A stretch of 64,000 nucleotides of DNA, taken from positions 1-64,000 of the forward strand of contig JAJYTF010000024.1 in NCBI GenBank assembly GCA_021793155.1, written 5' to 3'. The position numbers were made by a program, and so were the translations under genes. Shown in pieces: positions 3,472 to 21,046 of this stretch. Position 1 is the first letter of the stretch. Each line of letters begins with the position of its first letter. The notes under the pieces were generated by a model, which was not told the DNA's origin, made no database searches, and saw nothing but the letters and a program-made list of their open reading frames with translations. Source of the DNA: Pseudomonadota bacterium (GTDB lineage Bacteria > Pseudomonadota > Alphaproteobacteria > Rhodospirillales > Magnetospirillaceae).

Positions 3472-3556
3472 GCCCGCTTGATGGAATTGGTAGACATAAC
3501 GGACTTAAAATCCGTAGGCTTCGGCCGTGCCGGTTCGAGTCCGGCAGCGGGCACCA
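3472..3556 (+). tRNA. tRNA-Leu (anticodon UAA)
   Basis: The acceptor stem GCCCGCT (3472-3478) pairs with AGCGGGC (3546-3552), followed by an encoded CCA end. The anticodon stem is ACGGA/TCCGT around a seven-base loop CTTAAAA with anticodon TAA at 3506-3508, and a long variable arm (AGGCTTCGGCCGT) marks a class II tRNA. The T arm GCCGGTTCGAGTCCGGC is canonical. This gene is the integration site of the element that follows: its 3' portion from the anticodon stem onward is repeated at 21047-21102, so the tRNA stays intact after insertion. Confidence 0.97.
3501..3556 (+). repeat. attL: tRNA-Leu 3' part, left attachment site
   Basis: These 56 bases are identical to 21047-21102 and differ immediately outside on both sides (AC before and T after here; GG before and A after at the right). 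The repeat begins inside the anticodon stem and ends at the CCA. That is the usual arrangement for tyrosine integrases that cross over in or near the anticodon loop of a tRNA gene. Confidence 0.92.
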
Positions 3557-3624
3557 TAAGAAAAACAATGCGTTATGACGATGTGCCTGTCGTCAGTTTG
3601 GCTGGCGACGGGCTGACGTGTCTT

Positions 3625-3647
3625 TTTATCCCACATTTATCCCACAT
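3625..3647. promoter_or_regulatory. Direct repeats near attL, likely integrase arm-type sites
   Basis: Two copies of TTTATCCCACAT overlap by one base (3625-3636 and 3636-3647), an 11-bp period. Closely similar ATCCCACTT repeats with the same period lie just inside the right end at 20911-20930. Lambda-type integrases bind such arm sites near both att cores, so this is the natural reading. The rest of 3557-3864 shows no gene. Confidence 0.6.
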
Positions 3648-3864
3648 TTCTGGACGACGATGGTGGTGGTGGCCCCTTCATTGGGGACGCGCGAAAGGCA
3701 ATGCCCGGTAATTCCCAAGAGTTCCCGACAAATAATTGCTTCTCTTTCAAGGTAATTGTATGGCCTGAAAGGGCCCGTCAATCCTTTTGCTCTCAAGAAT
3801 AGATCGTCGATATTCTCGGTGTCTGTAAACGTGAGGCACGCACAGACACAGTGAGGAACCGAAA

Positions 3865-4176
3865 ATGTCGCCATCTGAGCAAGTGGATGACGTGATTGAA
3901 AGAATGCGCAAGGAATGTCCACCGATTTTTACTGGACCGTCACTGACGGAGCGGAGCGGCGGGGTGTTCAACTGGGGAACCATCCAGAACAGGCGCTCGG
4001 CCGGTAAGACGGATCCCACGAAGAAGATCCCTGACGAGTGCTTCCGATACATGGGGAAGCGGGTGCTGGTGGTGCGTGACCCCTTCCTCGACTGGGCGGC
4101 AACCACGTTATCCGTGTCACCGATTTCGACTTCGGGCAGCCCGCCCCGCCCGGCGCGCAAGATGGCCGCTGCCTGA
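3865..4176 (+). CDS. Small AlpA/excisionase-like DNA-binding protein
   Basis: A 103-aa protein, first gene inside the left end of the element. Residues about 22-70 follow the winged-helix pattern of MerR/AlpA-type excisionases: a helix pair around GGVFNWGTIQNRRSAG, then KIPDECFRYMGKRVLVVRD with the strand-turn-strand (GKRVLVV) that forms the wing, then FLDWAA. The same layout is seen in the protein at 14596. The ribosome site GAGGAAC lies six bases upstream of ATG 3865. By position and fold it may control excision or early transcription. No enzymatic motif is visible. The family call is by pattern and moderate. Confidence 0.6.
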   Translation: MSPSEQVDDVIERMRKECPPIFTGPSLTERSGGVFNWGTIQNRRSAGKTDPTKKIPDECFRYMGKRVLVVRDPFLDWAATTLSVSPISTSGSPPRPARKMAAA

Positions 4177-4251
4177 GCCGCTTTCGGAAACGATTGCGGC
4201 GGCACCAGTGGGAGAGCCGGTAGCCGCCGCCGTTAGAGGATCATCTGCACA

Positions 4252-4590
4252 ATGACCAGCTATAGATTCACGACGCCCGCCGGCGGCGTCATCCGTCGCG
4301 CCCCCCATTATCGCCGGATCGTGACTCCGCAGGTGTGGCACTCCGCAATGGCGGCCCTGATTGGCGTCTGGGAAGCAGCCAATAAGCGGTGGGGTTGGCC
4401 GGCCATGTCGCCTCACGCTCGCTTCCAACTTGAGCTCTACGCCGCGCATATCCTCGCCATCATCGAGGCGGAACCCGCTCGTGCATGGCGTCTGCTCGTC
4501 GAGCAAAGTACAGACCTCGAAATTGCATTCGTCAGCTTGTTCGACCCTCGCCGGTTCCACCATCTCCCCCGAAATCGTCGCCGCTGGTAG
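4252..4590 (+). CDS. Hypothetical element protein upstream of replication gene
   Basis: A 112-aa protein rich in Trp, Arg and Ala with no motif I recognise; its middle (WHSAMAALIGVWEAANKRWG) is probably helical. It has a GAGGATC ribosome site about ten bases upstream of ATG 4252. It ends with TAG at 4588-4590, eight bases before the likely GTG start of the replication protein, which supports both it being real and the start chosen for the next gene. Confidence 0.6.
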   Translation: MTSYRFTTPAGGVIRRAPHYRRIVTPQVWHSAMAALIGVWEAANKRWGWPAMSPHARFQLELYAAHILAIIEAEPARAWRLLVEQSTDLEIAFVSLFDPRRFHHLPRNRRRW

Positions 4591-4598
4591 GTGTCGTC

Positions 4599-7500
4599 GT
4601 GGACATTGGCGAACTCGCCGCCATCCTTCGCCAGCGACCGGCGGAGGTTGCAGAGGCACTGCTTGGCAAGCCGACAGTCCGCACCCGGCGAGAATGGCGC
4701 TGGGGGAGGAAGGGCTCGCTCAGCGTCGTCGTCGGCGGTCCGAAGGCGGGTAGTTGGTTCTCGCACGAGGACGGTATCGGCGGCGATATGCTGGCGCTGG
4801 TTGAGCGCGAACTGGGCCGTGACCGCGGCCTCGAGTGGGCGCGGCGGCGCTTCGTTGGCGCCGATCCGTCGCCCGTCCCGATCCAGCGTAGGGACAAGCC
4901 AGAGCTAGAGGTCGACGCTGAGGCCATCAAGCGGCAGGGACGCGCGAGCGACCTTGCCGCGAAGTCGGTGCCAATCTCTGGAACCCCAGGCGAGTTTTAT
5001 TTGCGTAACCGCGGCATCAATCCCGGCACTTGGCCGGATTGCATTCGCTGGCGCCATCGCACATGGGGAGGTATTGGGCCTGACGGCCAGCACATCGCAG
5101 GCGGCGCAGTGGTGGTGGTCGCCACCGATTCCGCCAGCAAGGTCAAGGCGACGCAATCCATCCACGTCACTGCTGAGGGACAGAAGGCGCCGGCAGATCT
5201 TTGCCACGGTGTAGTCAAGCGCACTGCGGGCACTCTGTCCGGTGCCGCAGTTCGCCTGCCAGGCGCCACGCCCATCATTTTGGCCGAGGGGCCAGAAACT
5301 GCTCTGTCCATCTGGTACGCCACCGGCCGCGAAACATGGGCTGTGCTGGGTGTGTCGAATTTCGCGAGCGCCGATATCCCGTCTGGTGACACGGTAGTGA
5401 TTGCGAAGGATGCCGATCAGCCCGGAGCAGCGAGTCACCATGCCATCGATCGCGCGGCCGAAGCGCTGGGCGGTCGCGGCGTAAAGGTGCTGGTCGCGAA
5501 GCCGGTTTTAGCGGGGTTCGACAAAGCGGATTTCAACGACGTGCTGTTGGCCGAGGGTCAGGCCGCCGTAGTCGCGATGATCGAGGCTGCCCTACCGTGG
5601 GAAGCTCCAGCCGGCGACGCATGTCTTCCTTACTTTGATGGCGCCCGGCTGCTGGCGGATGAGGCTGCGGCTTTGCTGCTCTCGACCTTCACGGATTTCC
5701 TTCAGCGTGCGGATCGGGCCTTGAGAATGCGGGAGGAAATCAACGCTGCAGTCCTTGCGGCAGAGGAAGACTCCGATCGGATGGCCGACATGGTGATCGC
5801 TGCCGGCGGACACGGGGCTAATCCGAGGGCGAGGTATCGGGAGATCTGTGCCGCTGCAAAGCTCCGCGCGAAGGCGGACCCGACAAAGGATGAGCTTGAG
5901 GGCGTCGACGATCGCGTGCGCCGCGTCTTGGGCCGCCGGTCAGCCCGCGAGGCTGAAGGCGAGGTGCGCCGCCGATGGGCGACCAGCAACGAAGGCTATC
6001 CCTTCCCACCGCGCCTGGAAGTAAAGGCAACGGCGGGCTTAGGGAAGACTTCGAACCTGGGAGTCCTGCTCAACTCCGACACCAAATGGCTGGAGGGGCG
6101 TAGAACGCACCTGTTCGCCGATCGCCACGCCCTGATCGACAAGCTCTGCGAAGCGTATCCTACCGCTAGGGTTATCAAGGGCCGCGCTCAGCATAACGCC
6201 GACGGCAGCCGCATGTGCAAGCGCTGGCGGGCGGCCGACGCAATCCGGCATGGCTTTCTGCGGGTGCTGGGCAACCTTTGCGATAACGGGTATACCCGCT
6301 GCCCCCATTATGCCGAATGTCCGTGGATCGCTCAGTGGCAGGATCACCGGCCGGGCATCGTCATCATGCCGTCCTCGTATCTGGCAATCCACAAACCATG
6401 CGGCTTCCCGCCCCCGGACCTGGCTGTAGTGGATGAGTCGGCGATCGGCGCGCTGGTATTGGAGCCGTTTTCCGTCTCCCCGGCGAATATTCGGCAATCA
6501 CGCCTCATTGGCGGCTTGGGCGCCAGCGTGCAGCACCGCAAGACCGGATTGGCCGTCCTTGAAGCCTTGGAGCAGCCTGGCAGCGAGCTTCGGGCGTTGC
6601 GCGAGAGGGGGATTACAGCCGACGCCGTGAGAGGTGCAGCGAAGTGGCTGACCGAGGCGGCCGGCGGTGGCCCAGCAATTTCACCGACCATGGCCGACGC
6701 CGAAATCATCCGGCGCATGGACAACTGGCGCGCGGCCGAACTGCACAAAATCGCCGTGATGTTCGAGGCTCTGGCAGACGAGATTGGTCTGCAACGCGAA
6801 GGGGCCCACGGTGTCGCCATGCGGCCAACGAAAGTCTACGTGGGGAAAGCCGGGGCGACTGCGGAAATTCAGGATCGGATTCATGTGTTCCGCGCGGCTA
6901 CGGCGGTTTTGCCGGCCGAGGGCGCTCTCCTGTTGCTGGATGCCGATGCCAATAAGCTAGTGAATGAGCGGCTTTTCGGGGGGATGCTCGAGTCAGTCGA
7001 GATTCGTGCCCGCCGTAATTCGGAGGTGATACAGGTCATGTCGACCAAACTGACCGAAACCGAGCTGACCGCGCAAAGTGAGACGGGGGAGCGGAAGCGC
7101 CGGCAACTTCGCGATCTGTTCGCGCGCGAGGCCAGGGGCGGGAAGAAGGTGCTCGTCGTTACCTATCTTGACCTGAGGTGCGAGCTGACCGGCGAAAATC
7201 GCGGCGACAAACTTCCGGTCTCGTGCCGTTACGGCGACGTGGATATCGCCCATTTCGGCAATGTGCGCGGCTATGACGACTTCAAGTCATACGACACCGT
7301 CATCGTGGTTGGGCGCTTCCAGGCGCCGCCGCAAGCTTATGAGGATATCGCCAGGGCCATCTATGCTGCCGATCCAGAACCGCTGAAATTTCTCGGTGGC
7401 GATGCCGGTAGCGGCGGGTGGAAGAAAGAGCGCCGCGGCTATGCGGTGAAATCTGGCGCCGCTTCAGTCGACGTCGACGTCCATCCGGATCCGCGCGTCC

Positions 7501-8297
7501 AGGCGCTAGTTGAGATCGGCCGGGAGGCTGAGACGGCGCAAGCTATAGACCGTTTGCGGCTCGTCTTTCGGGACTTCCCCGGTCGGGTTCTCCTGCTTTC
7601 GAGTTTGGTTGTCGACGTAGAGGTGGACAAGCTGGCCACATGGGCCGAGATCGCGGCCGGTGATGATCCGATCGAGGTTGCCCTCGATAGGCAGGACGGC
7701 ATCTTGCCGCTATCGGCCGCCTGGCTGCACGGGACCATGCCGGACATCTTCACCTCAGAACGATCGGCCGAGCGCGCTGCCGCCGAAGTGATAAACCGCC
7801 AAAAGCGCAATAAAGAATCCTATATTGCGGATCTGGCGGTTTATCGACTCCAAGGGCAGCGCAAGCCGTCCAAAGCGCTTGTCACCGGGGACATGCGAGA
7901 AATCGCCGGTCGGTTGGCCGCGAAACGGAAATCCTGGATCGCTTCCATGGAGGTCGGCGACGAATTTTTCGCGTGGGACATCTCTCCGTACCCGGCGCGC
8001 CTGGGCCCAATGACGGCAGAAGAGTCGCAACGTTTCGGTGAGGCCTGGCAGAACGGCACTATGTTGGAGTTCTCGCGCTGGTTCCGGTCGCCGCGACCGG
8101 CCAATGTTGTGATCGATCGGGAGGGCCGGCGGTGGTTCGGTCGTCCTGGGAGGGCGTCGGAATTCGCCCCTGAGACAATGCGGGTCGCTGACGCCGATCC
8201 AGGTGTGGACATCTCGGCCTGGCCGTGGCCGAAGGCGTCGGCCACGGTGGCAACGCCGGTGGTGGAGTTCGTGATCGGTGAGCGGCCGGTGGCGTGA
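4599..8297 (+). CDS. Toprim-domain primase / P-loop helicase-like replication protein
   Basis: A 1,232-aa protein, the largest in the element. Residues about 40-70 (SVVVGGPKAGSWFSHEDG) look like the N-terminal part of phage/plasmid Toprim primases. A Toprim core follows, with the catalytic-type ILAEGPETALSI near 227 and VVIAKDADQPG near 265. A Walker A motif ATAGLGKTS lies near 477 and a Walker B-like LAVVDES near 607. The C-terminal half is unassigned. I infer a primase-helicase acting in replication of the excised element. The longer frame opens at 4485 inside the previous gene; I prefer GTG 4599 because it follows GGTAGG at good spacing and directly follows the previous stop. Confidence 0.75.
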   Translation: MDIGELAAILRQRPAEVAEALLGKPTVRTRREWRWGRKGSLSVVVGGPKAGSWFSHEDGIGGDMLALVERELGRDRGLEWARRRFVGADPSPVPIQRRDKPELEVDAEAIKRQGRASDLAAKSVPISGTPGEFYLRNRGINPGTWPDCIRWRHRTWGGIGPDGQHIAGGAVVVVATDSASKVKATQSIHVTAEGQKAPADLCHGVVKRTAGTLSGAAVRLPGATPIILAEGPETALSIWYATGRETWAVLGVSNFASADIPSGDTVVIAKDADQPGAASHHAIDRAAEALGGRGVKVLVAKPVLAGFDKADFNDVLLAEGQAAVVAMIEAALPWEAPAGDACLPYFDGARLLADEAAALLLSTFTDFLQRADRALRMREEINAAVLAAEEDSDRMADMVIAAGGHGANPRARYREICAAAKLRAKADPTKDELEGVDDRVRRVLGRRSAREAEGEVRRRWATSNEGYPFPPRLEVKATAGLGKTSNLGVLLNSDTKWLEGRRTHLFADRHALIDKLCEAYPTARVIKGRAQHNADGSRMCKRWRAADAIRHGFLRVLGNLCDNGYTRCPHYAECPWIAQWQDHRPGIVIMPSSYLAIHKPCGFPPPDLAVVDESAIGALVLEPFSVSPANIRQSRLIGGLGASVQHRKTGLAVLEALEQPGSELRALRERGITADAVRGAAKWLTEAAGGGPAISPTMADAEIIRRMDNWRAAELHKIAVMFEALADEIGLQREGAHGVAMRPTKVYVGKAGATAEIQDRIHVFRAATAVLPAEGALLLLDADANKLVNERLFGGMLESVEIRARRNSEVIQVMSTKLTETELTAQSETGERKRRQLRDLFAREARGGKKVLVVTYLDLRCELTGENRGDKLPVSCRYGDVDIAHFGNVRGYDDFKSYDTVIVVGRFQAPPQAYEDIARAIYAADPEPLKFLGGDAGSGGWKKERRGYAVKSGAASVDVDVHPDPRVQALVEIGREAETAQAIDRLRLVFRDFPGRVLLLSSLVVDVEVDKLATWAEIAAGDDPIEVALDRQDGILPLSAAWLHGTMPDIFTSERSAERAAAEVINRQKRNKESYIADLAVYRLQGQRKPSKALVTGDMREIAGRLAAKRKSWIASMEVGDEFFAWDISPYPARLGPMTAEESQRFGEAWQNGTMLEFSRWFRSPRPANVVIDREGRRWFGRPGRASEFAPETMRVADADPGVDISAWPWPKASATVATPVVEFVIGERPVA

Positions 8298-8356
8298 TCG
8301 CCGGCGTGACGGTCTCCTATCGGTTGAACTTGGTCATTTCCGATAGGAGCGCGAAA

Positions 8357-8980
8357 GTGGCAGATTCTGACACCAAAGCCGAAGTTCTGGCCGCCATTGA
8401 GGCGCATCTGGCGGCGGAGGGGCCTCAGAACTGGGGCGTGGTGCGCGGTCGATACCCGCAGATTCCTGAACCGACTTGGTGGCGATGGGTCCGCTCAGTC
8501 AAAGAGGCGATCTCTACCAAGGCCGCTCTCGATGAGGTGCGAAAGCGCTATCAGGAAGAGCTCGATGCCACATCCCAGGATGATAGTTTGGCCGCTATCA
8601 AAGAAAACCTACCGGCCGCTCCGTCGCCGGATTTCCTGGCGAAGAATGGCAAGAAGGGCATCGAACGTCTGAACCTGCTGGCCGTGATCGAAGGGCTGCT
8701 CGAGGACGCCAATAAAATGCGGGCGTACTCCGTCAAGGAGAACGACGACATCAAGAACCCGGTCTGGTTCGACCGATCGATGGAGCGCCGCGAGCGTTTC
8801 GTCAACACCGCCATCAACGCGATGCGGGAGGTCTGGGAACTCCGGCGCATCGAGCAGATGTTCGACATCCTGGTCGAGGAAGTGGCCGCCGAATCCAAGG
8901 AGGCCGCATTCCGAATCATGAAGCGTTTCCAGGCAGCAAATGAGCAATACGGCTTTGCCTTCAACGCGGGGACGGTGTGA
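8357..8980 (+). CDS. Hypothetical element protein, mostly helical
   Basis: A 207-aa acidic, mostly helical protein with an N-terminal stretch (WGVVRGRYPQIPEPTWWRWV) that reads like a DNA-binding helix-turn-helix. Later there is a long charged helix region rich in Glu, Arg and Lys. Two starts compete: GTG 8294, which overlaps the replication gene stop by 4 bp, and GTG 8357, which has TAGGAGCG eight bases upstream and is my choice. It sits between the replication protein and a small gene that overlaps it by one base (TGATG type). A small-terminase-like or replication-accessory role is possible but unsupported. Confidence 0.6.
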   Translation: MADSDTKAEVLAAIEAHLAAEGPQNWGVVRGRYPQIPEPTWWRWVRSVKEAISTKAALDEVRKRYQEELDATSQDDSLAAIKENLPAAPSPDFLAKNGKKGIERLNLLAVIEGLLEDANKMRAYSVKENDDIKNPVWFDRSMERRERFVNTAINAMREVWELRRIEQMFDILVEEVAAESKEAAFRIMKRFQAANEQYGFAFNAGTV

Positions 8981-9243
8981 TGCGCGACCGCCTGATCCTC
9001 GACGCCGCTGTCCACGGCGTTCCCACGCGCACCTATTACCAACTTCGCGACGAAATCGCGGCCGAGATCAGGGCCGGCCGGCTGCGGCGGGACCAGCGGG
9101 CCATTGCCGCTTGGGTCGGCCGTCGCCTCGACCGGTTGCGCCTGCCGGCTGATCTTGGTGTCGACCATGCCGCCGCCGTGGTTGCCGAACACTTCCTGGG
9201 TGACGTCGACCGGCACATGGAACTGCGGCGGGCGGAGAGGTGA
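8980..9243 (+). CDS. Small hypothetical element protein
   Basis: An 87-aa Arg- and Asp-rich protein beginning at ATG 8980, whose first base is the last base of the preceding TGA. This tight coupling suggests an operon from 4252 to here. The sequence (DQRAIAAWVGRRLDRLRL) is probably helical; no family is recognised. A hairpin with stem GGCCGAG/CTCGGCC (9251-9275) follows the stop and may end the operon, though it lacks a T-run. Confidence 0.55.
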   Translation: MRDRLILDAAVHGVPTRTYYQLRDEIAAEIRAGRLRRDQRAIAAWVGRRLDRLRLPADLGVDHAAAVVAEHFLGDVDRHMELRRAER

Positions 9244-9470
9244 AGCAAAAGGCCGAGCCCTTGCTGGACTCGGCCCTGAACTCGCTGCCACGCGTTCTCA
9301 GCTCGACACCCGCTGACGGGCCGCTGAGGGAGGTGCCGGCTTCAGACGGTATCCCCGTCAACTGGCTGACGTGTCACCACGCCCGTCATGGCCGGGAGGC
9401 TTTCGCCTCAGGCAGGCTCCCAGAGAGCAGCTTCATGATAGCCCGGCCAGCGGCAAGCGTGAATACGTGA

Positions 9471-9579
9471 ATCGCCCCGGCACCTTTCGATGTCGGGGCG
9501 ATCTGGGGGAACCTCGGCTTACGGGGGCATCCGCTCCCACCATGGAAGACCCATGGCCCGGTGCCAGCGCTTCGGCGTT
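9471..9579 (+). ncRNA. Structured RNA unit 1 (conserved core plus three hairpins)
   Basis: From 5' to 3' the unit contains a strong hairpin (ATCGCCCCG/CGGGGCGAT, 9471-9502), a 21-base linker starting CTGGG, and the core GGGGCATCCGCTCCCACC (9524-9541). A hairpin CCATGG-AAGAC-CCATGG (9540-9556) follows, closed by an outer stem GGCA (9526-9529) with TGCC (9562-9565). A last hairpin is AGCGC-TTCG-GCGTT (9566-9579). The same order with different stem bases recurs at 9639-9751, so base pairing rather than sequence is kept. Strand and class are inferred. The location in a phage-like element and the architecture suggest a C4- or CI-type antisense immunity RNA, which is unproven. Confidence 0.6.
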
Positions 9580-9638
9580 CCCCTTCGCGGCAGCCGCATT
9601 ATGTCGCGGCGGCTGGATTAGTGGAAGGCAGCAAAAAG

Positions 9639-9751
9639 CGAAACCCCGCACGTTGGCGGGGTTTCTGACCTGGGTTCTACACGGTTTGCTGGGGCATCCG
9701 CTCCCACCGCAATCTTCTTGCGGCCCGCTGCCGTCGCCGCCACAAAGGCGG
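9639..9751 (+). ncRNA. Structured RNA unit 2, tandem copy of unit 1
   Basis: This copy has the upstream hairpin GAAACCCCGC/GCGGGGTTTC (9640-9665), a 25-base linker ending in a CTGGG-containing segment that aligns to unit 1, and the identical 18-base core (9691-9708). The hairpin CCGCAA-TCTTC-TTGCGG (9707-9723) sits at the same offset with the same stem and loop length as in unit 1, but four of its six pairs are changed on both sides. The outer pair GGCA/TGCC (TGCC at 9729-9732) is kept, and a final hairpin CCGCC-ACAAA-GGCGG ends at 9751. No protein of this region (9244-9986) looks real; the open frame across it merely reads through these stems. Confidence 0.6.
9640..9665. terminator. Terminator-like hairpin within RNA unit 2
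   Basis: A perfect ten-base stem GAAACCCCGC/GCGGGGTTTC with a six-base loop, preceded by AAAAAGC on the left. It can act as an intrinsic terminator in either direction: it has a short T stretch on the right and the A-run on the left reads as T on the other strand. It may separate the two RNA units. Confidence 0.4.
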
Positions 9752-9986
9752 ATCGTCCAGTTGAGGCAGGATCAATATAGTCCGCTTTGTCGCTTGGTGG
9801 AAACCCTTCGAAATCAACGAAGCCCCTCTGACCAAGGCCGTCGGGGTTTCGGAATCCGCACTGACCGAGTATTCAGCCATTGGCCGGGCGCCTTGCAGCT
9901 ACCCCTCGGCACCTGACAGGCCCGGTGAGCGCGTGCTGCGGGCTGGGCTGCCCTATTATGGCGACCACTCACAGGACCATCAAGGT

Positions 9987-10670
9987 TCAAGAAGCTACAC
10001 GCTGTTTCAGCATGTTGGCCACCGACTGGGGGCCGAATGGTGCGCCGTCGGGTTTGGTGTAGCCGATCGCCGCCAGCTCCTCGGCGATCTGGCGAAGCGA
10101 ACGCACCTTGCCGTTTTTGGGGTTCTTTCTGGCCAGTCTGTGGGCGGCACGGACCATGTCGGGGGCGGTTTCACCGTGGCTCTTGCGCCCTTCGCATTTG
10201 CCGGCCGCTGCCTTCTTGCGGCTCCGCGCGCCGCGGAGCTTTGCGACGGTCATGGCCTTGTCGAATTGCGCAACCGCCCCCAAAACTTGGCGAATCAGAA
10301 CGGCGGTCGGCGTGTCGTCGGTGAAGTGATCTGGCGCGGATACCGGAATCAGTACGATGCCCATTCGCTTCAGCATATCGTGGCCGGTGAGTTGCACCAT
10401 CAGGTCGCGGGCGAAGCGGTCCGGGCTTTCGACGAGAATGGTGCGCACACCGTTTCCGGCGATCCGGGCCAGCATGTCGGCGAAGCCGGGGCGCGTGTCG
10501 ATGGGGTCGGCGCCAGAGACCGCGGCATCGTAGAATTCCCCAACGATCTCTATGCCAGCCTTCAGGGCGTAAGCCTTGACCGCTTCAGCCTGCCTACGGG
10601 CGCTGTCCTTGCCGTCGCCGACATTGGCAGCGCTGCTGGTCCGATAATAAGCCAACGCTTTCACGGTCAT
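9987..10670 (-). CDS. Serine recombinase (resolvase/invertase family)
   Basis: A 227-aa small serine recombinase. The N-terminal catalytic domain has the nucleophile region LAYYRTSSAAN (Ser at 12 or 13), the DSARRQ helix, the GVRTILVESPDRFARD segment carrying the conserved Arg/Asp pair near residues 75-90, and the long helix with VLGAVAQFDKA. The C-terminal part (SLRQIAEELAAIGYTKPDG) is a helix-turn-helix as in recombinase-domain proteins. Enzymes of this kind resolve, invert or insert DNA using a Ser-DNA bond. It points left, opposite to its neighbours, and lies between the structured RNAs and the phased repeats. It could be a resolvase or an inverter of a local switch. The ribosome site AGGGA precedes ATG 10670. 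Confidence 0.85.
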   Translation of the reverse strand: MTVKALAYYRTSSAANVGDGKDSARRQAEAVKAYALKAGIEIVGEFYDAAVSGADPIDTRPGFADMLARIAGNGVRTILVESPDRFARDLMVQLTGHDMLKRMGIVLIPVSAPDHFTDDTPTAVLIRQVLGAVAQFDKAMTVAKLRGARSRKKAAAGKCEGRKSHGETAPDMVRAAHRLARKNPKNGKVRSLRQIAEELAAIGYTKPDGAPFGPQSVANMLKQRVAS

Positions 10671-10820
10671 GACGCTTTTCCCTGCAAGAAAACTGTGTAG
10701 TCATAAGCCTTGTGTATCCTGGCATTGAGCCGTTTATTCGTCAAGATATCTTGAGAAAAATTGACAATGCGGTCCCACGTCCGCGGCCGATGGCGCGCGC
10801 CCTTCGGGCTGTCGTGACGG

Positions 10821-10880
10821 AAACCTTCAAAAGGCCTCAAAAGCCTTCAGGAGGCCTCAACAGCTCACGAAAGCCTCAAA
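10821..10880. repeat. Ten-base phased repeats before a gene run
   Basis: Four successive ten-base blocks from 10821 to 10860 vary the theme AARSCYTCAA: AAACCTTCAA, AAGGCCTCAA, AAGCCTTCAG and GAGGCCTCAA. A related AAGCCTCAAA follows at 10871. The period equals one helical turn, as in iteron or operator arrays. The open frame of the following gene could extend through it, so a coding origin (KRPQKPSGGL) is an alternative. Confidence 0.45.
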
Positions 10881-10882
10881 AG

Positions 10883-11242
10883 ATGTCCGCATTCCAAGAA
10901 CTTCTCGATGAAATCGAACGCGAGGCCAGGCGCCCTCTGACTCCTGCCGAGCGCCAGCGAGCTCATGTTGCCAAAATGGCCGCTCTGTCCGCCCGCAATC
11001 GCCGCGGTGCCGTGCGGATGAAGCGAACGATGGCGACCCTGGCAAAATCCCTGAGCGGCATGCAAACCCTCATGCTCGGCATGCAGCGAGCTGCTGCCGA
11101 AGATCTCCGGAAATCGCTGCGCGATAGTTTCGCCGAGCTCAACACCCGGACGAATGACGCGATCAAGGCCGGCGCAATCTCCGCCATCGAGGCCGCAACC
11201 ATCGAAGCGCGCCTCAACCGTATCGCGGTGAGGCTGGGATGA
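10883..11242 (+). CDS. Hypothetical helical element protein (first of gene run)
   Basis: A 119-aa protein, Arg/Ala-rich and probably alpha-helical throughout (PLTPAERQRAHVAKMAALSA, then MATLAKSLSGMQTLMLGMQ). The open frame extends back to 10712; I prefer ATG 10883 because the upstream part covers the phased repeats and has unusual composition, but no good ribosome site decides this. It starts a run of five co-directional genes joined by overlaps or gaps of a few bases, ending with the hub-like protein. Function unknown. Confidence 0.5.
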   Translation: MSAFQELLDEIEREARRPLTPAERQRAHVAKMAALSARNRRGAVRMKRTMATLAKSLSGMQTLMLGMQRAAAEDLRKSLRDSFAELNTRTNDAIKAGAISAIEAATIEARLNRIAVRLG

Positions 11243-11529
11243 CGCCAGACATTCCCGCTCTGCGCGACGAATTGGCCACGCTGCGCGCTAGCCTGCCTGG
11301 GCTGGCGTTGGCGGGCGGCGACACCTCTGCCGCCAGGCTAGAAATTGCCCGCCTGGAAGATGCGATCGCCGCGGCCGAAGAGCGCACCGAAGCGAAAGCT
11401 GAGGCCGCACAGCAACATCGCGCCGATGCGATCAAGCGAACGGCCTCGGACATTGCCTCCCGCGTCACCGCCATCATCGGCAAACAGCTTGCGGCGCTGG
11501 AACCTCCCGCCGCCCCGAAGGGAATCTGA
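11239..11529 (+). CDS. Small coiled-coil element protein
   Basis: A 96-aa Ala/Glu-rich protein whose sequence (RLEIARLEDAIAAAEERTEA) shows heptad spacing typical of a coiled coil over most of its length, with a Pro-rich end. It overlaps the preceding gene by four bases (ATGA), which implies translational coupling. Structural or scaffold roles are common for such proteins in phage-like gene runs, but no family is recognised here. Confidence 0.55.
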   Translation: MTPDIPALRDELATLRASLPGLALAGGDTSAARLEIARLEDAIAAAEERTEAKAEAAQQHRADAIKRTASDIASRVTAIIGKQLAALEPPAAPKGI

Positions 11530-11532
11530 CCC

Positions 11533-12054
11533 ATGACCAGCATCGTGATTCAAAATGCCGCCCAGGCCGTTGCAGAGGCCCGCCAGGCCGCGGAAGAGGC
11601 CGCTGCTTTCCTGGCCAAGGCCAACGACGAAACGGACAAGGTCGCCCGCCGCATCGCCGCCCTGAACGTGAAACGAGCGACGATAATCTCGGCGCGCCAG
11701 GCGGCCAAGGATGATCCGGAGCACGGTGCCAAGCTGGCGACGATCCAGGCGGACACCGAGATTCTGACCGAACTGTTGGAACGCTGCACAGCCGACGCGG
11801 TGCCGTTGCGGACGGCCGATGCCGAAGCTCGGCGCCTACGGGCATTTGCCGAACAGCAGTTGCAGAAGGCCGTTGATGAAGAACTGCTCGGGCGGCTGCT
11901 CGAGCACGCGGCGAAGCTTGACGGCTTGCTCCTGGAGACTGCCAGTCAGATCGCCGCCGTCGGCCAGCGCCTTGGGGTTCGCCCCAATTGCTGGGCTCCA
12001 TCGCGCGCTCTTCATGAAGTGCTGCATCGCCTTCACCTGCAGAGGCTGTCATGA
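11533..12054 (+). CDS. Coiled-coil element protein
   Basis: A 173-aa protein dominated by long Ala/Glu/Lys helices (AVAEARQAAEEAAAFLAKAN near the start) up to about residue 150; the last 20 residues are less regular. It starts four bases after the previous stop and overlaps the next start by four. It has no signal peptide, TM segment or catalytic motif that I can see. It may be a structural or scaffold partner of the hub-like protein downstream. Confidence 0.55.
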   Translation: MTSIVIQNAAQAVAEARQAAEEAAAFLAKANDETDKVARRIAALNVKRATIISARQAAKDDPEHGAKLATIQADTEILTELLERCTADAVPLRTADAEARRLRAFAEQQLQKAVDEELLGRLLEHAAKLDGLLLETASQIAAVGQRLGVRPNCWAPSRALHEVLHRLHLQRLS

Positions 12055-12251
12055 CGGTGGCCGCGAAGAAGGGAAATGGACAGCGGGGCCCGTCCCCGCT
12101 GTCCGACCGTACACAGCAGCGCGTCCTCTCCGACCTTCTCCGGCGGGCCGACGCTGGCGATACCGCTGCGGCGGAAAGCCTGCTCCGCCTCGGCATGATT
12201 GGCGGCAAGGCGTCGGCATCTGGACCGGCTGACAGACGCCCGGAGGCCTGA
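12051..12251 (+). CDS. Very small hypothetical element protein
   Basis: A 66-aa basic protein coupled to the previous gene by an ATGA overlap and placed three bases before the hub-like gene. The middle (LSDLLRRADAGDTAAAESLL) is probably helical. No family is recognised. Its reality rests on the coupling on both sides. Confidence 0.5.
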   Translation: MTVAAKKGNGQRGPSPLSDRTQQRVLSDLLRRADAGDTAAAESLLRLGMIGGKASASGPADRRPEA

Positions 12252-12253
12252 CC

Positions 12254-13756
12254 GTGAGCAAAATGCCCATCTATCACCCTCAAATTTCGGTCCTGTTGAA
12301 GAAGAACATCGGCCGCTCGAATCTGGCCAACGGGCTGCCGGCATCACAGCGCTTCACCGGAACTCAGCGTGTCATCGATCTGACACCGTTCATCGGGGAG
12401 AACGGTCGCGTTGTGGTGCGGAAATCCGTCCGCGCGCCAGCCGGCATGTTCTCCGTCACCCTGGCCGACAAGATGCCTTCGTTTGAGGCGGAATCGCTCT
12501 ACGCCCTGATCGAGCCGATGGATGTAATTGAGATCCGGATGGCTCTGGACACATCGGTCTACGCTCGCGCTGGCTACGAGAAATCCATGCCATTGATGAT
12601 GCGTGGATTTGTTACCGAGATTGGACGTGAAGAAGCAATGGTCGGTGGCCATGATGCGCGGCCAAGCCGCTCGATCGTCATTAGCGGCCAAGATTACGGC
12701 AAAATTCTCACCATGATGCAGATCGCCTATTTGCCGAATATGGTGACGGGGCAGAATCTGACCACGGCCTTCAAGTTCTTCCTGAACTATACGGGCGACA
12801 TGCCGATTTTCCAGGACGCGTCCAGTTTCGTCGAAGGGATCGTTTCTTCTGTCATCAACCCCTTCATTGGTGAAATGTGGAGCGCGGCGGCATCGCAACC
12901 TGTCTCCGGCGGCAGCTCGCCCGTTCTCGGTTTCCAAGTCGACGCGACCGTTCAAAATGGCATTGTGTCGGCCGTCGGCACCAACGCCTGGCCGGGCGGG
13001 ACAGTTTACACCCTCCTGAGCTATTTCGGCGACGTAGGGCCATGGAATGAGCTCTTCGTCGAGGATCGGGAAGACGCGCCCTACATCGTCTACCGGCCCA
13101 ACCCCTTCAAGGATGCCTCGGGTAACTTCATTCAGCCGATGGCGACTCCGCCGGCGGTGAACAGAATCACCAATGACGACATCATCTCTGTATCGGTGGA
13201 CCGCAGCGACTCCAACGTGGCCAACTATTATTGGGTAGATAATCCCCGTTTCGCACTGAATGACGGTGCTACCCTTCAAATGGGCATCGCGTACCAGCAG
13301 ATCCCTGGGGAGTTTTATCTCGACAACTATGAGAACTGCTCACCGAAATACTATGGATTCCGCCAGATGCTGGTGCAAAGCCAGCAGGGGCCGCGAATCG
13401 ACGGCCTGAAAGAGGCTGCGTACAATAAGGGCAAATCTGACTATTTTAATTTTCTGGCCAAGAAGCGCCAGGTTCTGATGGACAGCAACAAGGACAATGT
13501 TGTCTGGGAGTCGGGGCGCCTCGTTCTCAAGGGGAACGAAGCAATTAGAGCCGGTTCCTTTCTCCAGGTTCAGCGGGGCACGCTTGCCGGCGAATGCTAT
13601 ACGGTCGAAGTGACCAATGATTTCCGGCCTTTCCACTCCTACACCACTTCCGTCACCTATGAGCGCGGGAGCGGATTCATCGCACGCAGCCAGATGGGCA
13701 GCCGCGCCGCCTCGCCTTACCTGGCGGAACTCAACCTTGGAGGTGTCTATGACTGA
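12254..13756 (+). CDS. Phage tail/baseplate hub-like protein
   Basis: A 500-aa protein. Residues about 50-150 follow the first beta-barrel pattern of the gp27/Mu-gp44/P2-gpD hub family: PAGMFSVTLADKM, then ESLYALIEPMDVIEIRMA, then PLMMRGFVTEIGREEAM, and SIVISGQDYGKIL where hubs have their second domain. The C-terminal part (LKGNEAIRAGSFLQVQRG, then TTSVTYERGSGF) resembles the end of such tail proteins. Hub trimers join tail tube and baseplate in contractile or flexible tails. No sheath, tube, tape-measure or baseplate gene is recognised nearby, so a lone hub is odd. The family call rests on pattern, not on a search. Confidence 0.55.
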   Translation: MSKMPIYHPQISVLLKKNIGRSNLANGLPASQRFTGTQRVIDLTPFIGENGRVVVRKSVRAPAGMFSVTLADKMPSFEAESLYALIEPMDVIEIRMALDTSVYARAGYEKSMPLMMRGFVTEIGREEAMVGGHDARPSRSIVISGQDYGKILTMMQIAYLPNMVTGQNLTTAFKFFLNYTGDMPIFQDASSFVEGIVSSVINPFIGEMWSAAASQPVSGGSSPVLGFQVDATVQNGIVSAVGTNAWPGGTVYTLLSYFGDVGPWNELFVEDREDAPYIVYRPNPFKDASGNFIQPMATPPAVNRITNDDIISVSVDRSDSNVANYYWVDNPRFALNDGATLQMGIAYQQIPGEFYLDNYENCSPKYYGFRQMLVQSQQGPRIDGLKEAAYNKGKSDYFNFLAKKRQVLMDSNKDNVVWESGRLVLKGNEAIRAGSFLQVQRGTLAGECYTVEVTNDFRPFHSYTTSVTYERGSGFIARSQMGSRAASPYLAELNLGGVYD

Positions 13757-13934
13757 CCTGCGCGCAGCGGTGGCGTTGGTCAGCTAATTGATCCGGGGGC
13801 CCACCCGGAGGTCCGCCGGCTGGTGAGCGTGGGGCTCTTCGCGCTTGCCGGTCGGCGGCCACGCTTTCGGTCCATGGGAGATGCGTTGAGGCCCGCGCGC
13901 TCGTCGGCCGGTGATCGCGGGTTACTTCTGCCGC

Positions 13935-14381
13935 TTATCGGCCGGTGGGCAACTTGCCGGCTCGGCACTTCGCGTCGGCCTGCTCGAGTTCCTGTCGCAG
14001 ATCGTCCGGTGGGTTGACCATGGCCGGATTGACCCATCCCGGCGGCCGATACGGAGTGTCATACGCGTCGTAGATGCTTGGATCGTCCTGAGGTGAGGGC
14101 ATGCGGGCTTTCAGCTCGATCGCCTGCCCCTCGGGAGAAGCGCCGGCCGCGGCCATTTCGTCGAGGAAGGCGGCCGGCATCTCCTCCTCGGTCGCCCCGT
14201 CGTCGACCACCCGGTAGATTGCCTGGCCATCATCGCGCACCCAGAAGTGCACGGCATTGCCGGCGAACATCTTGATGTAGCCGCCCGCCCAGAAGTCTTG
14301 GGGCGCCTTCGCCTTCCCGGTCGATATCAGGCCGCGGGCAATGGCCTGAGCCTGGGGGCGGTCGTTTGATCGATCGCTCAT
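13935..14381 (-). CDS. Hypothetical element protein
   Basis: A 148-aa acidic protein with a compact N-terminal region (FWAGGYIKMFAGNAVHFWVR) followed by a Pro/Asp-rich tail. The start at 14381 has AGGAG eight bases upstream on the minus strand, so I discard the longer frame reaching 14585. It faces left, between the hub-like gene and the AlpA-like regulator, and its promoter must lie in 14382-14595, the same interval that holds the palindromic operator. Family not recognised. Confidence 0.6.
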   Translation of the reverse strand: MSDRSNDRPQAQAIARGLISTGKAKAPQDFWAGGYIKMFAGNAVHFWVRDDGQAIYRVVDDGATEEEMPAAFLDEMAAAGASPEGQAIELKARMPSPQDDPSIYDAYDTPYRPPGWVNPAMVNPPDDLRQELEQADAKCRAGKLPTGR

Positions 14382-14548
14382 GGTCTTTCTCCTAAACGCC
14401 AGGCGCCGTTTTCCGCGGGGCGCGGGCCGGTGGTGGCGTCGGTCGGTGTTTGGGAATTGCTGCGGTGAATAGCGCCGTCCTCGACGGCACACCGCGACAC
14501 TATTGATGCTACCAGCGGTCGAGGATCTGCACAATGGAAGTGTCGGGA

Positions 14549-14580
14549 AATTCCCCCTTTCTGCGCTATACGGGGGAATT
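14549..14580. promoter_or_regulatory. Palindromic operator 1 before the AlpA-like gene
   Basis: Half-sites AATTCCCCC (14549-14557) and GGGGGAATT (14572-14580) are perfect reverse complements separated by 14 bases. The right arm ends 15 bases before the regulator start at 14596. A second copy with the same arms and the same 14-base spacer is found at 15048-15079 after the gene. Confidence 0.65.
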
Positions 14581-14595
14581 AGCAAATAAATTCAG

Positions 14596-15015
14596 ATGGT
14601 TAACAATTTGACCGTTCGCGGGCTATTCGCTTCAATGCCGCCGTTTACCAAGCTGCGGAGGGCTCAAATGGGTGAAGCGTTTGCGAGGGGTGAGGTCTTC
14701 CTGTCGCCGGCCGAGGTGAGCGCGAGGTACGGCGGTCGGATTGCGATCAAGACCCTAGCGAATTGGCGATCAGCTCGGGATGGCAAGGGGCCGCGTTACA
14801 TTCGGGTTGGTGGCCGGATTCTTTATCCATTGTCCTGGCTTGTCGATTGGGAGCGCAGCCGCACTGCCACTTCCACCGCCGATTATGGCAAGCCCAGGCC
14901 GTTCAAGCGGTTGGTGCTGAAGAAGCGACAAGGAGTCAGGCGGCAAAAGTGCAATTTGACGCTCAGCCCTGCACCTTGGCCGGTCAGAATACGGCGGAAA
15001 ATGGGGGTGCCGTAA
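14596..15015 (+). CDS. AlpA/excisionase-like HTH regulator
   Basis: A 139-aa protein. Residues about 36-92 form the excisionase/AlpA winged-helix pattern: FLSPAEVSARYGG, then AIKTLANWRSARDGKGPRY, the wing IRVGGRILYPLS, and WLVDWE. The basic tail (KRLVLKKRQGVRRQK) may add DNA affinity. Proteins of this kind direct integrase toward excision or activate early promoters in satellites. Paired palindromes flank the gene, which suggests autoregulation. The start may be ATG 14596 or a later Met (residue 14 or 25). No strong ribosome site is visible before 14596. Confidence 0.68.
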   Translation: MVNNLTVRGLFASMPPFTKLRRAQMGEAFARGEVFLSPAEVSARYGGRIAIKTLANWRSARDGKGPRYIRVGGRILYPLSWLVDWERSRTATSTADYGKPRPFKRLVLKKRQGVRRQKCNLTLSPAPWPVRIRRKMGVP

Positions 15016-15047
15016 ATGTAGGTAGTCGTGGAAATGTCGACCGACAA

Positions 15048-15079
15048 TATTCCCCCATAATAGGCAAAAGGGGGGAATT
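15048..15079. promoter_or_regulatory. Palindromic operator 2 after the AlpA-like gene
   Basis: TATTCCCCC (15048-15056), a 14-base spacer, then GGGGGAATT (15071-15079). Arms and spacing match operator 1 apart from the first base of the left arm. It lies 165 bases before the ATG at 15244, so it could control the following operon, or form a loop with operator 1 across the regulator gene. Confidence 0.65.
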
Positions 15080-15243
15080 AACAGTGACTAGGGGTATTCG
15101 CGCGAAATCTGAAGATTGCCTTCGCTTGATACTTGCAGCGGGAATTTCCGGGATGTATGGTACTTGAGAAAGCGGCCGAACGGGGAAGGTGGAAGCTCCC
15201 CGCGCCCGGCCTAACCAACCCGACCTGCGAAGGAGGATCGGCA

Positions 15244-15672
15244 ATGGCTACGGCCATCCTACATCACGAGGGCTCATCTGTCAGGCGAGCCCAAATCCCA
15301 TCAGACCCTGTCACCGCCGCTGGCCAGCGTATCGCCTGGGCATATGGCCGCATCGAGCAAGCCGAGGCTGACGACCGGCCGGCCGAGGTGCGTCGCCTCG
15401 AGCGCACGATCAACGTGGCCGAGCAGGTGATTGCCGAAACGACATCCTCGTCGCTGGCTGGAGCTCTTGTGCATGTCATGTACGCCTCGGCCGAGGTTGA
15501 GCGCTTGGCGGCCCATGCCTTCGGCGACAAGGCTCGGCCGATTGAGGCGGCAATCAAGGAGGCGCTGGCCTCAGCCATCACCGTGATGGCGCGTACCGCC
15601 GGCATCAAAGCCGCGGCCGTGGGCGGCGACTATTTCTTGGCGGCCGGCGGTGCTGGCGAATTGGGGGAGTGA
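15244..15672 (+). CDS. Hypothetical helical element protein
   Basis: A 142-aa protein, Ala-rich and mostly helical (RIEQAEADDRPAEVRRLERT, then SLAGALVHVMYASAEVERLA). The start at ATG 15244 has the excellent ribosome site GAAGGAGG nine bases upstream, so the longer frame from 15133 is rejected. It probably belongs to a two-gene operon with the gene at 15675. Function not recognised. Confidence 0.65.
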   Translation: MATAILHHEGSSVRRAQIPSDPVTAAGQRIAWAYGRIEQAEADDRPAEVRRLERTINVAEQVIAETTSSSLAGALVHVMYASAEVERLAAHAFGDKARPIEAAIKEALASAITVMARTAGIKAAAVGGDYFLAAGGAGELGE

Positions 15673-15674
15673 AG

Positions 15675-15902
15675 ATGATGGGAGTATTGGAGCGAGCCGA
15701 CAAAATGCGCCCGGCGCCGCTTGGGATCGGCCGGCCGCAGATGACCGACCAGCAGCGCGCTGCCCTGTTGGTCGAGATGAAGTCGGCCGTCATCGACATG
15801 GCGACGCTGGTGCTGGCCATGTCGGGCGACGTTCCCCCGCGCCTACGGCATTACGTCAAGGGGCTGGAGGTGTCGATTCGGGTGCTGTCGGAAGAGCTGT
15901 AG
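15675..15902 (+). CDS. Small hypothetical element protein
   Basis: A 75-aa helical protein (ALLVEMKSAVIDMATLVLAM) starting two bases after the previous stop, with GGGGGAG seven bases upstream. A GTG at 15669 is an alternative start. It has no membrane segment strong enough to call. Function not recognised; the length and coupling suggest a regulatory or accessory partner of its neighbour. Confidence 0.55.
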   Translation: MMGVLERADKMRPAPLGIGRPQMTDQQRAALLVEMKSAVIDMATLVLAMSGDVPPRLRHYVKGLEVSIRVLSEEL

Positions 15903-15946
15903 AACGGCGGGCAGCAGTGTGAAGCCTTTCCCTTACCGGCCGGGCT

Positions 15947-16636
15947 TCACGCCGACTCCCAGGTGCGCGGCGGTAGGGTCACAAACGCCGCAAACCAGCG
16001 TTGCCACCAACGAAGCGGCTGCTTGTGGGACGGGTCGGCTTTCTGTGCTGTAACCTCTTCGTTGTGGCAGACGATCATCAGCGCATTCCGTGTGGCTGGT
16101 TCTCCCGCTTCGATGAGCGTGAGGTCGGCCTCGATTTCGCGAATGGTCTCGTCCGATGGATTCTCTCCAGCCCGTACAAGGCGCTCCTGCAGACGGGTGT
16201 ATTGCCGGTAAAAGTCGGTGTGTGACCGAGCTTTGTCCGGCCAGCGAAACGCCAGGCTGACGGTGGCGGCAACCATCACGGTGAGGCTCGCATAGAGAGC
16301 CAGTCCGGTTTGTTTGCCGAGGGCATCCGCGAACGCGGCGCTGCCCCCGACAAGGCTCAGGACCGTCGCGAAATTTTCGAGGCCGCCATAATGGCTGGCA
16401 AGGCGACTGTTGTAGCGTCGGGAGATACCGATGCGAAACCGAATCTCCCAGGCCTTGTCGCCGATCGCTACTTCTTCGTCGGTTGGGGCGGCGGGGCCGG
16501 CGTCGGAAGCGGCGATGTCGTCGTCCCAGGGTTCGGAGCCGGACGCGGCGGCGGAGCCACCGGTGATATCGTCCTTTGGATGCCCTTCGGGCTCGGCGGC
16601 GTTGCGAGGGGGGACATCGAATCTTGTGCGATCCAT
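15947..16636 (-). CDS. Two-TM SLATT-like membrane protein
   Basis: A 229-aa protein. It has an acidic disordered N-terminus (about 1-60) and an amphipathic helix (WEIRFRIGISRRYNSRLASH). Two closely spaced TM helices follow at about 90-110 and 112-132, then a cytosolic helical part with DFYRQYTRLQERL, EADLTLIEAGEP and MIVCHNEEV. This order (helix, TM hairpin, conserved cytosolic helices with a CHNE motif) is the one seen in SLATT-type two-TM proteins that are predicted pore-forming effectors of antiphage systems. No SMODS, SLOG or other sensor gene is next to it, so any defence role is inference. The ribosome site GGAGAAG precedes ATG 16636. Confidence 0.6.
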   Translation of the reverse strand: MDRTRFDVPPRNAAEPEGHPKDDITGGSAAASGSEPWDDDIAASDAGPAAPTDEEVAIGDKAWEIRFRIGISRRYNSRLASHYGGLENFATVLSLVGGSAAFADALGKQTGLALYASLTVMVAATVSLAFRWPDKARSHTDFYRQYTRLQERLVRAGENPSDETIREIEADLTLIEAGEPATRNALMIVCHNEEVTAQKADPSHKQPLRWWQRWFAAFVTLPPRTWESA

Positions 16637-16884
16637 GAGCCCTTCTTCTCCGGCATTCGTATTGTCTCCTGTTAGGCGATCGTCAGGGGACAGGCGGAAC
16701 GGCCCGTTGCGAGCACCCCGTAACTGCCAACCATCGGGCGAACAATATAACCCGATTCGGCTGTGTGGTCACTGCCCTGCGGCGCCCGTGGCGGATGGAT
16801 GCCGCAGCCATCGTGAACAGACCATTGATCCCAGACGAAACAGGCCAGCGTATTGCCGGCCAAACTCTCGATCTGGAGGCAACA

Positions 16885-17310
16885 ATGACGGTTCTTTGCA
16901 AGATGGTTTGCAACGGGGTGAGTTTGAGTAGGGCTGCCGGGGGGAGAGTCGCCTATTTCGACGCCATCGCCGGAGCCAGCGAGAACGCGATCTTCGGCAC
17001 CGGCGCGCCCGACTGTCGCCTATCCATCGCCATCCCCAACGGTGTGGAAATGCCGTTCGTACCGAGCACCGAATATTACTTGAGCTTTGGAACGTCGACG
17101 GATGGCTTCCTGGACGCGGCGACGTTCGGCGCGAAGGTGGTGACGACCTACCGTTCATCGTCCAACCGCGGTCTTCCGAATGGTGCGGTCGAGTTCCGGT
17201 TTGCCGAAGATGCCGACAGCGTGCGCATCGACCTCGACATGACGATGACCGACGCCACGGCGATCGCCTACCTCGGCCAAGTCACCGGTCTGTCGATGAG
17301 CCCTGTCTGA
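16885..17310 (+). CDS. Hypothetical beta-rich element protein
   Basis: A 141-aa protein rich in Gly, Ala, Thr and Asp, with a beta-type pattern (YYLSFGTSTDGFLDAATFG). CTGGAGGC lies before ATG 16885, which fixes the start; the longer frame from 16765 is not needed. It is followed 12 bases later by another beta-rich small protein, so the two likely form an operon. Virion-decoration or receptor-type roles are imaginable, but I recognise no family. Confidence 0.6.
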   Translation: MTVLCKMVCNGVSLSRAAGGRVAYFDAIAGASENAIFGTGAPDCRLSIAIPNGVEMPFVPSTEYYLSFGTSTDGFLDAATFGAKVVTTYRSSSNRGLPNGAVEFRFAEDADSVRIDLDMTMTDATAIAYLGQVTGLSMSPV

Positions 17311-17322
17311 GGACGCGCGACC

Positions 17323-17595
17323 ATGAGCACACTTTGGCAGGATTGCAGCGGAACCATCCCCGCCGGCGGATCCGAGGTTGTTCTGCCGGCCGACAAGAAC
17401 CGGCATGGCCTGTTCTTCGCCAACCCGGACAGTTCCCACACCATGACGGTCTCGGTGGGTAACACCAACATTCCGGTCGCGGCTGGACAGAGCCTGACGC
17501 TCCCGCCCGCTGGCCAGGGGGCGGCGATGTGTCCGTCCAATCAGATCAGCATCAGCGGCAACGCCGGATCGAACTTCGTCGCTGCGCGTTGGTAA
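17323..17595 (+). CDS. Small beta-rich protein, phage-structural-like
   Basis: A 90-aa protein with alternating hydrophobic strands and Gly/Pro turns (GGSEVVLPADKNRHGLFFAN, later NIPVAAGQSLTLPP and ISGNAGSNFVAARW). This composition is common in small head-fibre or decoration proteins of phages, but the assignment is compositional only. It shares direction and probably a transcript with the gene at 16885. Confidence 0.5.
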   Translation: MSTLWQDCSGTIPAGGSEVVLPADKNRHGLFFANPDSSHTMTVSVGNTNIPVAAGQSLTLPPAGQGAAMCPSNQISISGNAGSNFVAARW

Positions 17596-17664
17596 AGAGG
17601 GGCGGGGCTCGCCGTCAGGTGAGCGCGGGCCCGATCCCCTGCGGCCGTGTGGCCGCCTGGCCGC

Positions 17665-18312
17665 CTACAGATAGGCGCTCTTCGGGCATTTCGTTGCGCC
17701 AGGTGCCGGCTTCGGCCGCGGTGGTTCCCAGGCTGGCGCATCGTCTGGGGCGGCCACGAAGGCGACGCGGCCTTCAGTCGTGCGCAAGACCTGCGTCATC
17801 AACTCCTCAAAGCCGGGGATCCAGACACCTGGCTCAGACTCGACGTCGGCAGCCCAGTCTTCGTAGACAACAACGCGCCGATCGGGGGTGTCGCTGTCGA
17901 GCACTACGCCCAATCGTCGTTTCGCCAGTTTCAGCTTCTGAGGCGGTTTCCCTTTGGCGTTGGCTCCCCTTAGGAATTCCAATTGCCTGTTGTAACAGCC
18001 AATCGACAAGCGATTTCCCACCATCTTCATCCCGCCCCGACCGCACCGCGGGCAGATCTCGGCGCCGTAAAACGGTGATCGGTAGACTGGCTTCTCGCCG
18101 GCATGCGCCGCACCGATCGGGCAGGTCCGGCACTTTGCCAGCCGATCAGCCTCTTCACCGCGGGCGGCCTGCGCCTGGTGCCAGCGCTTCTCGCACGCAT
18201 CGATGGCCAGAGATGCCCGCCAGGCCTCACAGCGGAATAGATCCTTCGGGAAGCCGTCAATTCGATGGTAGGTGACGCCGGCGGCACGGCGGCGATCGGT
18301 AGGAGCGTCCAT
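17665..18312 (-). CDS. Cys-rich putative zinc-binding element protein
   Basis: A 215-aa protein. The N-terminal half has Cys pairs in CRTCPIGAAH, ICPRCGRGG and GCYNRQLEF, plus a further Cys (FRCEAW), consistent with one or two zinc sites. The segment SIGCYNRQLEFLRGANAKGK is conserved-looking and probably DNA- or RNA-binding. The C-terminus is Pro-rich (APAWEPPRPKPAPGATKCPK). The start at 18312 has GAGGG about seven bases upstream; the longer frame to 18357 lacks support. A late-transcription-activator-like role would fit a phage-like element but is not shown. Confidence 0.55.
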   Translation of the reverse strand: MDAPTDRRRAAGVTYHRIDGFPKDLFRCEAWRASLAIDACEKRWHQAQAARGEEADRLAKCRTCPIGAAHAGEKPVYRSPFYGAEICPRCGRGGMKMVGNRLSIGCYNRQLEFLRGANAKGKPPQKLKLAKRRLGVVLDSDTPDRRVVVYEDWAADVESEPGVWIPGFEELMTQVLRTTEGRVAFVAAPDDAPAWEPPRPKPAPGATKCPKSAYL

Positions 18313-18448
18313 GTCTGCCCTCGCCCGGTGGTGGGTGAGGGGGCAGTGTCTTGTCACTTCTGATGGGATTGGCGGCGGTCAGATGGCGATGCTGCGGGCC
18401 TCACAACTGCCGGATTCACATGGCGCAACTTTAACGGTACAATTCAGC

Positions 18449-19605: not shown

Positions 19606-19631
19606 GGCCCGCAGAAGACGGGGGAGTTCGG

Positions 19632-20891: not shown

Positions 20892-20910
20892 AGCCCTGAC
20901 CTCCAGTCGC

Positions 20911-20953
20911 ATCCCACTTTTATCCCACTTCTCGGCGTGATGCAATGTGGGAT
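20911..20953. promoter_or_regulatory. Repeats near attR, likely integrase arm-type sites
   Basis: ATCCCACTT repeats at 20911-20919 and 20922-20930 with an 11-bp period, and an inverted GTGGGAT at 20947-20953. They match the TTTATCCCACAT pair near attL. They also overlap the region upstream of the integrase start, so integrase may repress its own promoter when bound. Confidence 0.55.
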
Positions 20954-21046
20954 GGAATGAGGGGCAGTGACGATGACATCCGTTTACAACGGCCAAAGAC
21001 AACGGATTTGTGAGGGTGGATGATGCATGGTGATACCTATTATCGG

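Follow-up and report, generated by a model that had tools for sequence, protein, structure and literature searches.

The locus analysed here lies within an integrative element of ~17.5 kb (3501-21102 in the window, that is, the whole 64-kb stretch of DNA under analysis), flanked by two perfect 56-bp copies of a 3' tRNA-Leu segment (3501-3556 and 21047-21102) and carrying a tyrosine integrase inside its right end. The left of the element encodes a primase-like protein of 1270 aa, with Toprim_3 and DUF7146 domains and matches to phage primases; near its relatives in genomes G022, G152, G155 and G238, the 18-mer core described below was not found. A serine resolvase gene occupies 9987-10670 on the minus strand, ~240 bp from two short repeated units, which occupy an interval lacking any recognisable gene, with the primase operon (plus strand) ending on one side and the resolvase gene (minus strand) lying on the other. 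Further along the element, a 500-aa protein (12254-13756) shares 32-38% identity, over nearly its full length, with tail/endolysin-domain proteins of phages of 86-96 kb, and 44-45% identity with three IMG/VR contigs. Carriage of a tail-type gene by an element of this modest size could point to a phage satellite. For a 228-aa neighbour protein, a search of order genomes did not reveal a relative.

The two units (~9471-9579 and ~9639-9751) had been described in a first-pass annotation as sharing a core of 18 bases, and this is borne out by an exact match: the 18-mer GGGGCATCCGCTCCCACC is present at 9524-9541 (unit 1) and 9691-9708 (unit 2), and no other 18-mer of the 64-kb window recurs at a distance of less than 1 kb. 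The units can be aligned without gaps over 66 nt (9500-9565 vs 9667-9732). The 6-bp stems with 5-nt loops noted on the earlier reading (CCATGG-AAGAC-CCATGG and CCGCAA-TCTTC-TTGCGG) are found as stated, at an equal offset in each unit; the outer GGCA/TGCC pairing is retained in both, and the GC-rich hairpins at 9471-9502 and 9640-9665 were confirmed as inverted repeats. The features of the locus, read on the minus strand for reasons given below, are the following.

9774-9802, minus strand: promoter-like site of unit 2, TTCCAC-N17-TATATT (exact motif match)
9632-9767, minus strand: predicted unit 2 RNA of ~136 nt, with ends placed according to its promoter-like site and terminator
9691-9708, minus strand: conserved 18-mer of unit 2, whose minus-strand reading is GGTGGGAGCGGATGCCCC (exact repeat)
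9693-9732, minus strand: conserved hairpin of unit 2, with a GGCA/TGCC base, CG/CG, a GGGAG internal loop and apical CCGCAA-GAAGA-TTGCGG (pair counts)
9633-9665, minus strand: predicted intrinsic terminator of unit 2, with a 10-bp stem GAAACCCCGC/GCGGGGTTTC, a 6-nt loop and GCTTTTTG (terminator scan; -20.4 kcal/mol)
9598-9626, minus strand: promoter-like site of unit 1, TTCCAC-N17-CATAAT (exact motif match)
9465-9591, minus strand: predicted unit 1 RNA of ~127 nt, with putative ends
9524-9541, minus strand: conserved 18-mer of unit 1 (exact repeat)
9526-9565, minus strand: conserved hairpin of unit 1, apical CCATGG-GTCTT-CCATGG (pair counts)
9471-9502, minus strand: 3' GC-rich hairpin of unit 1, ATCGCCCCG...CGGGGCGAT, terminator-like and without a T run (inverted repeat; -22.4 kcal/mol); not called by the terminator scan

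A protein-coding repeat, with similar frames in both units, was considered and ruled out. Coding is argued against because the core is identical at 18/18 bases and at all codon positions, with flanks that are ~50-60% identical, and because the unit-to-unit spacing of 167 nt is not divisible by 3; in addition, the frames over the locus gave no protein family or tblastn match. Short leader peptides can be read on the minus strand from an ATG that follows GGGAG (MPQQTV and MPP), and these are not conserved.

In the minus-strand alignment all 13 common pairs are retained, with 4 changed on both sides, 9 invariant and 0 broken, and when the pairing partner is slid by 1-3 columns the paired cells fall to 27-46%. 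Perfect Watson-Crick hairpins with 6 bp and a 5-nt loop are found at 0.05% of window positions (0.9% of those bounded by CC..GG), and since they are so rare, the occurrence of two of them at an equal offset is unlikely to be due to chance. The first-pass annotation had spoken of direct covariation, a claim that holds insofar as four compensatory pairs are seen and none is broken, but which was overstated for n=2; covariation drawn from only two sequences counts as weak by the usual criteria, and a permutation control, in which 37 of 500 shuffles reached the observed value, has almost no power. The apical loops at 9546-9550 (GUCUU, unit 1) and 9713-9717 (GAAGA, unit 2), on the minus strand, could form four mutual pairs (UCUU/AAGA), a complementarity for which coincidence is roughly estimated at ~2%.

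Whole units fold only modestly better than shuffled sequences (z of -1.4 to -1.7), and the predicted unit 1 RNA has a fold z-score of -2.4, with common-pair probabilities of 0.53-0.99. In the full-length fold of unit 2, the base of the conserved hairpin competes with a local core hairpin (GGG-A-GC-GGAU-GC-CCC) that presents GGA in its loop, and the predicted RNAs differ in this respect, unit 1 favouring the long hairpin and unit 2 the local one. Such a short hairpin, exposing GGA, evokes the idea that the core acts as a sponge for CsrA/RsmA. Its pair probability reaches 0.87 in unit 2, and a weak match to RsmY was obtained on the opposite strand (15.7 bits vs 57). However, unit 1 disfavours the local hairpin (0.08-0.31), and no CsrA gene (PF02599) was found in the 99.9% complete host genome by a search for which the E. 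coli and B. subtilis controls were positive; a sponge is contradicted by a host that lacks CsrA on this search, and is regarded as extremely improbable.

Signals that could mark the RNA strand are concentrated on the minus strand. The motif TTCCAC-N17-YATAWT, which was chosen only after both units had been inspected, occurs at a matching minus-strand position upstream of each unit, with no third exact match in the 64-kb window, and the unit 2 site was also retrieved in a consensus scan. The general similarity of the upstream regions is weak, with 65 of 1000 shuffles being equally good. At the 3' ends, unit 2 shows a 10-bp terminator stem followed by GCTTTTTG (T5), directly after which stands the promoter-like site of unit 1; the 3' end of unit 1 is a GC-rich stem without a T run. 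On the plus strand of 8900-10800, the consensus and terminator scans identified no promoter-like or terminator-like site. The energy of the common hairpin is -18.0 and -16.7 kcal/mol on the minus strand vs -15.9 and -11.7 kcal/mol on the plus strand. The minus strand is likely to be the RNA strand for both units, since each has an upstream promoter-like site and unit 2 a terminator, with none found on the plus strand of 8900-10800; the assignment falls short of proof, because the motif is post hoc, the upstream similarity is weak, and chance alone should yield ~2 such terminator-like sites over that length. The original proposal, a tandem pair of structured RNAs, continues to account best for the locus, but it had been made for the plus strand, and the promoter- and terminator-like signals fall on the minus.

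These data bear on two further explanations. The first is that the RNAs belong to the plus strand, for example as fragments released by processing at the 3' end of the primase operon mRNA, which would agree with the ability of the hairpins to form on both strands and with the fact that the operon runs into the locus; given the lack of plus-strand signals in the scans and the weaker common hairpin on that strand, this appears quite unlikely. The second is that the GC-rich hairpins serve as transcription punctuation, ending transcription that converges from the resolvase (minus) and the primase operon (plus), in which case any minus-strand RNA would be cis-antisense to the 3' end of the operon. 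Such a role would suit the convergent gene layout and the strength of the two hairpins (9471-9502 and 9640-9665), together with the T run seen on the minus strand, but punctuation leaves unexplained the identical 18-mer, the variable but paired apical stem and the two promoter-like sites, and is rather unlikely.

A role at the level of DNA must also be weighed, in which the serine resolvase, the integrase or a replication protein would bind or recombine the 18-mers, the hairpins being either incidental or part of the site. The resolvase gene is only ~240 bp off, and every base of the core is conserved, as might be expected of a binding site. Usual serine-resolvase sites are inverted repeats; the 18-mer core is not, and is located past the point where the resolvase gene ends. 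Neither the compensatory changes in the apical stem nor the promoter and terminator signals are expected of DNA sites, and this explanation is considered unlikely.

The reading that best accommodates the locus, to which we assign a probability of roughly 0.55, is that the minus strand of the integrative element carries a tandem pair of small RNA genes arranged head-to-tail, which would probably encode small regulatory RNAs. The repeat, the preserved pairing, the signals resembling promoters and a terminator, and the failure of the searches to detect homologues are direct observations; that the genes are transcribed, from which strand and between which ends, and how and on what target their RNAs act, is what we infer from sequence. 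Each unit would comprise a promoter-like site of its own, a 5' part, the conserved hairpin, a linker and the 3' GC-rich hairpin, the latter serving in unit 2 as a clear intrinsic terminator. The conserved hairpin would combine a purine-rich internal loop with a variable tip. The units may have originated by duplication, the 18-nt segment and the hairpin base having been held as the remainder drifted. Their likeliest action would be that of trans-acting regulatory RNAs, possibly with the help of Hfq, which is encoded by the host, and the common segment GGUGGGAGCGGAUGCCCC would either pair with a C-rich target or bind a protein.

The existence of a decayed third unit at 9306-9336 had also been suggested, and was not detected by a covariance model run with filters off. 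When 9290-9465 of the minus strand was compared with unit 1, lenient scoring gave a suggestive result, equalled by 15 of 3000 segments of natural background; under strict scoring, the figure was 886 of 3000. This region is possibly a very diverged third unit, a reading that is not robust. A promoter-like sequence, TTCACG-N17-TATCAT, lies at 9435-9463 (minus), directly after the 3' hairpin of unit 1. Another, TTGATG-N17-CATAAT, is found at 9955-9983 (minus), just past the resolvase stop codon, and in the region below it (9812-9990) similarity to the units was no better than that of shuffles.

Homologues were sought by several routes. Rfam models at gathering scores matched only tRNA in the window, and a permissive Rfam search of the locus yielded nothing above a gathering score, its best matches following the terminator. 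An exact 16-mer was present in 17 IMG/VR stretches, 0 of which had the hairpin, and in order genomes it had two outside matches, both without the hairpin. The core with the stem end gave, among the matches listed for GTDB contigs, none that keeps GGCA, stem and TGCC, and none in IMG/VR, and the stem with the core had no outside match with six pairs in IMG/VR or in 385 class genomes. The first-pass annotation had advised a search for the core plus stem pattern in other prophages, and with these strict patterns no homologue emerged from IMG/VR. It is of note that the pattern searches required exact matches and would miss diverged relatives. Comparisons by blastn revealed no homologue among phage and plasmid records, and among 60 relatives only a 27-nt match, in G043, at the unit 2 terminator. 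The covariance model found nothing above noise in family genomes; the larger searches with it employed stricter filters, the class being represented by a sample of 385 genomes. In that sample a match of 32 bits in G492 lies within a reading frame and was taken as chance. Elsewhere in the host genome, the rate of core matches equals that of a reversed-pattern control. There is no independent conservation of the units, since no homologue was found elsewhere, and they are best described as putative tandem RNA genes of a known kind that are orphans, with no match in the databases searched.

The first-pass annotation had favoured an antisense immunity RNA of the C4 or CI type, which would block the expression of a nearby phage gene. 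The units do resemble the C4 RNA of P1/P7-type phages (RF01695) in being small structured RNAs on a phage-like element, and their location on a mobile element with a primase-like gene recalls P4 CI in a general way, but neither a model match nor a complementary target was found for them. A search with the Rfam C4 covariance model, which had been proposed as a check, returned no match at the locus (9200-10000, E<=5), none in the window at the gathering score, and in the whole genome a best score of 17 bits (E 3.65) on another contig, the gathering score being 45 bits. With the core as query, no complement of at least 11 nt was found elsewhere in the element outside the units; the best core duplexes in the element are GC-rich, scattered and not distinct from the GC-rich background. 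Scans of element proteins did not identify an antirepressor. The immunity proposal is thus unsupported, and is very improbable.

Comparison with other small RNAs is also informative. Cuckoo/CcsR RNAs carry a conserved C-rich anti-Shine-Dalgarno loop motif, and CTCCCACC is present on the plus strand of the locus and absent from the minus strand, which is the likely RNA strand. CcsR1-4 of Rhodobacter sphaeroides, of the cuckoo RNA family, share a single ccaF1-sRNA operon, which has a single promoter and a single 3' terminator, and are cut from its transcript by RNase E (PMC10253847). The likeness consists of several small structured RNAs in tandem in an alphaproteobacterium, a class to which the present host probably belongs, judging by the relatives of its primase, whereas the units described here have apparent promoter-like sites and 3' hairpins of their own and lie on a mobile element, and are set apart from CcsR1-4 by description. 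The Pas sRNAs of E. coli, described as prophage-encoded and acting by base pairing, likewise lie on mobile elements, and are likened to the units by description (PMC13192938).

It is decidedly doubtful that the units represent a new RNA family confined to one group of tRNA-Leu integrative elements, in which tandem RNAs with a conserved GGGAG internal-loop motif would bind a protein of the element or of a helper phage and thereby control replication or helper use. With one genome and two copies, the unit pair is a lead and not yet a family. Small RNAs of mobile elements can link element genes to the physiology of the host or of a helper phage. If expressed, the units would constitute a compact, two-copy, unnamed RNA whose compensatory changes fall inside a single locus; the element around them also encodes a primase-like protein and a relative of lytic-phage tail proteins.
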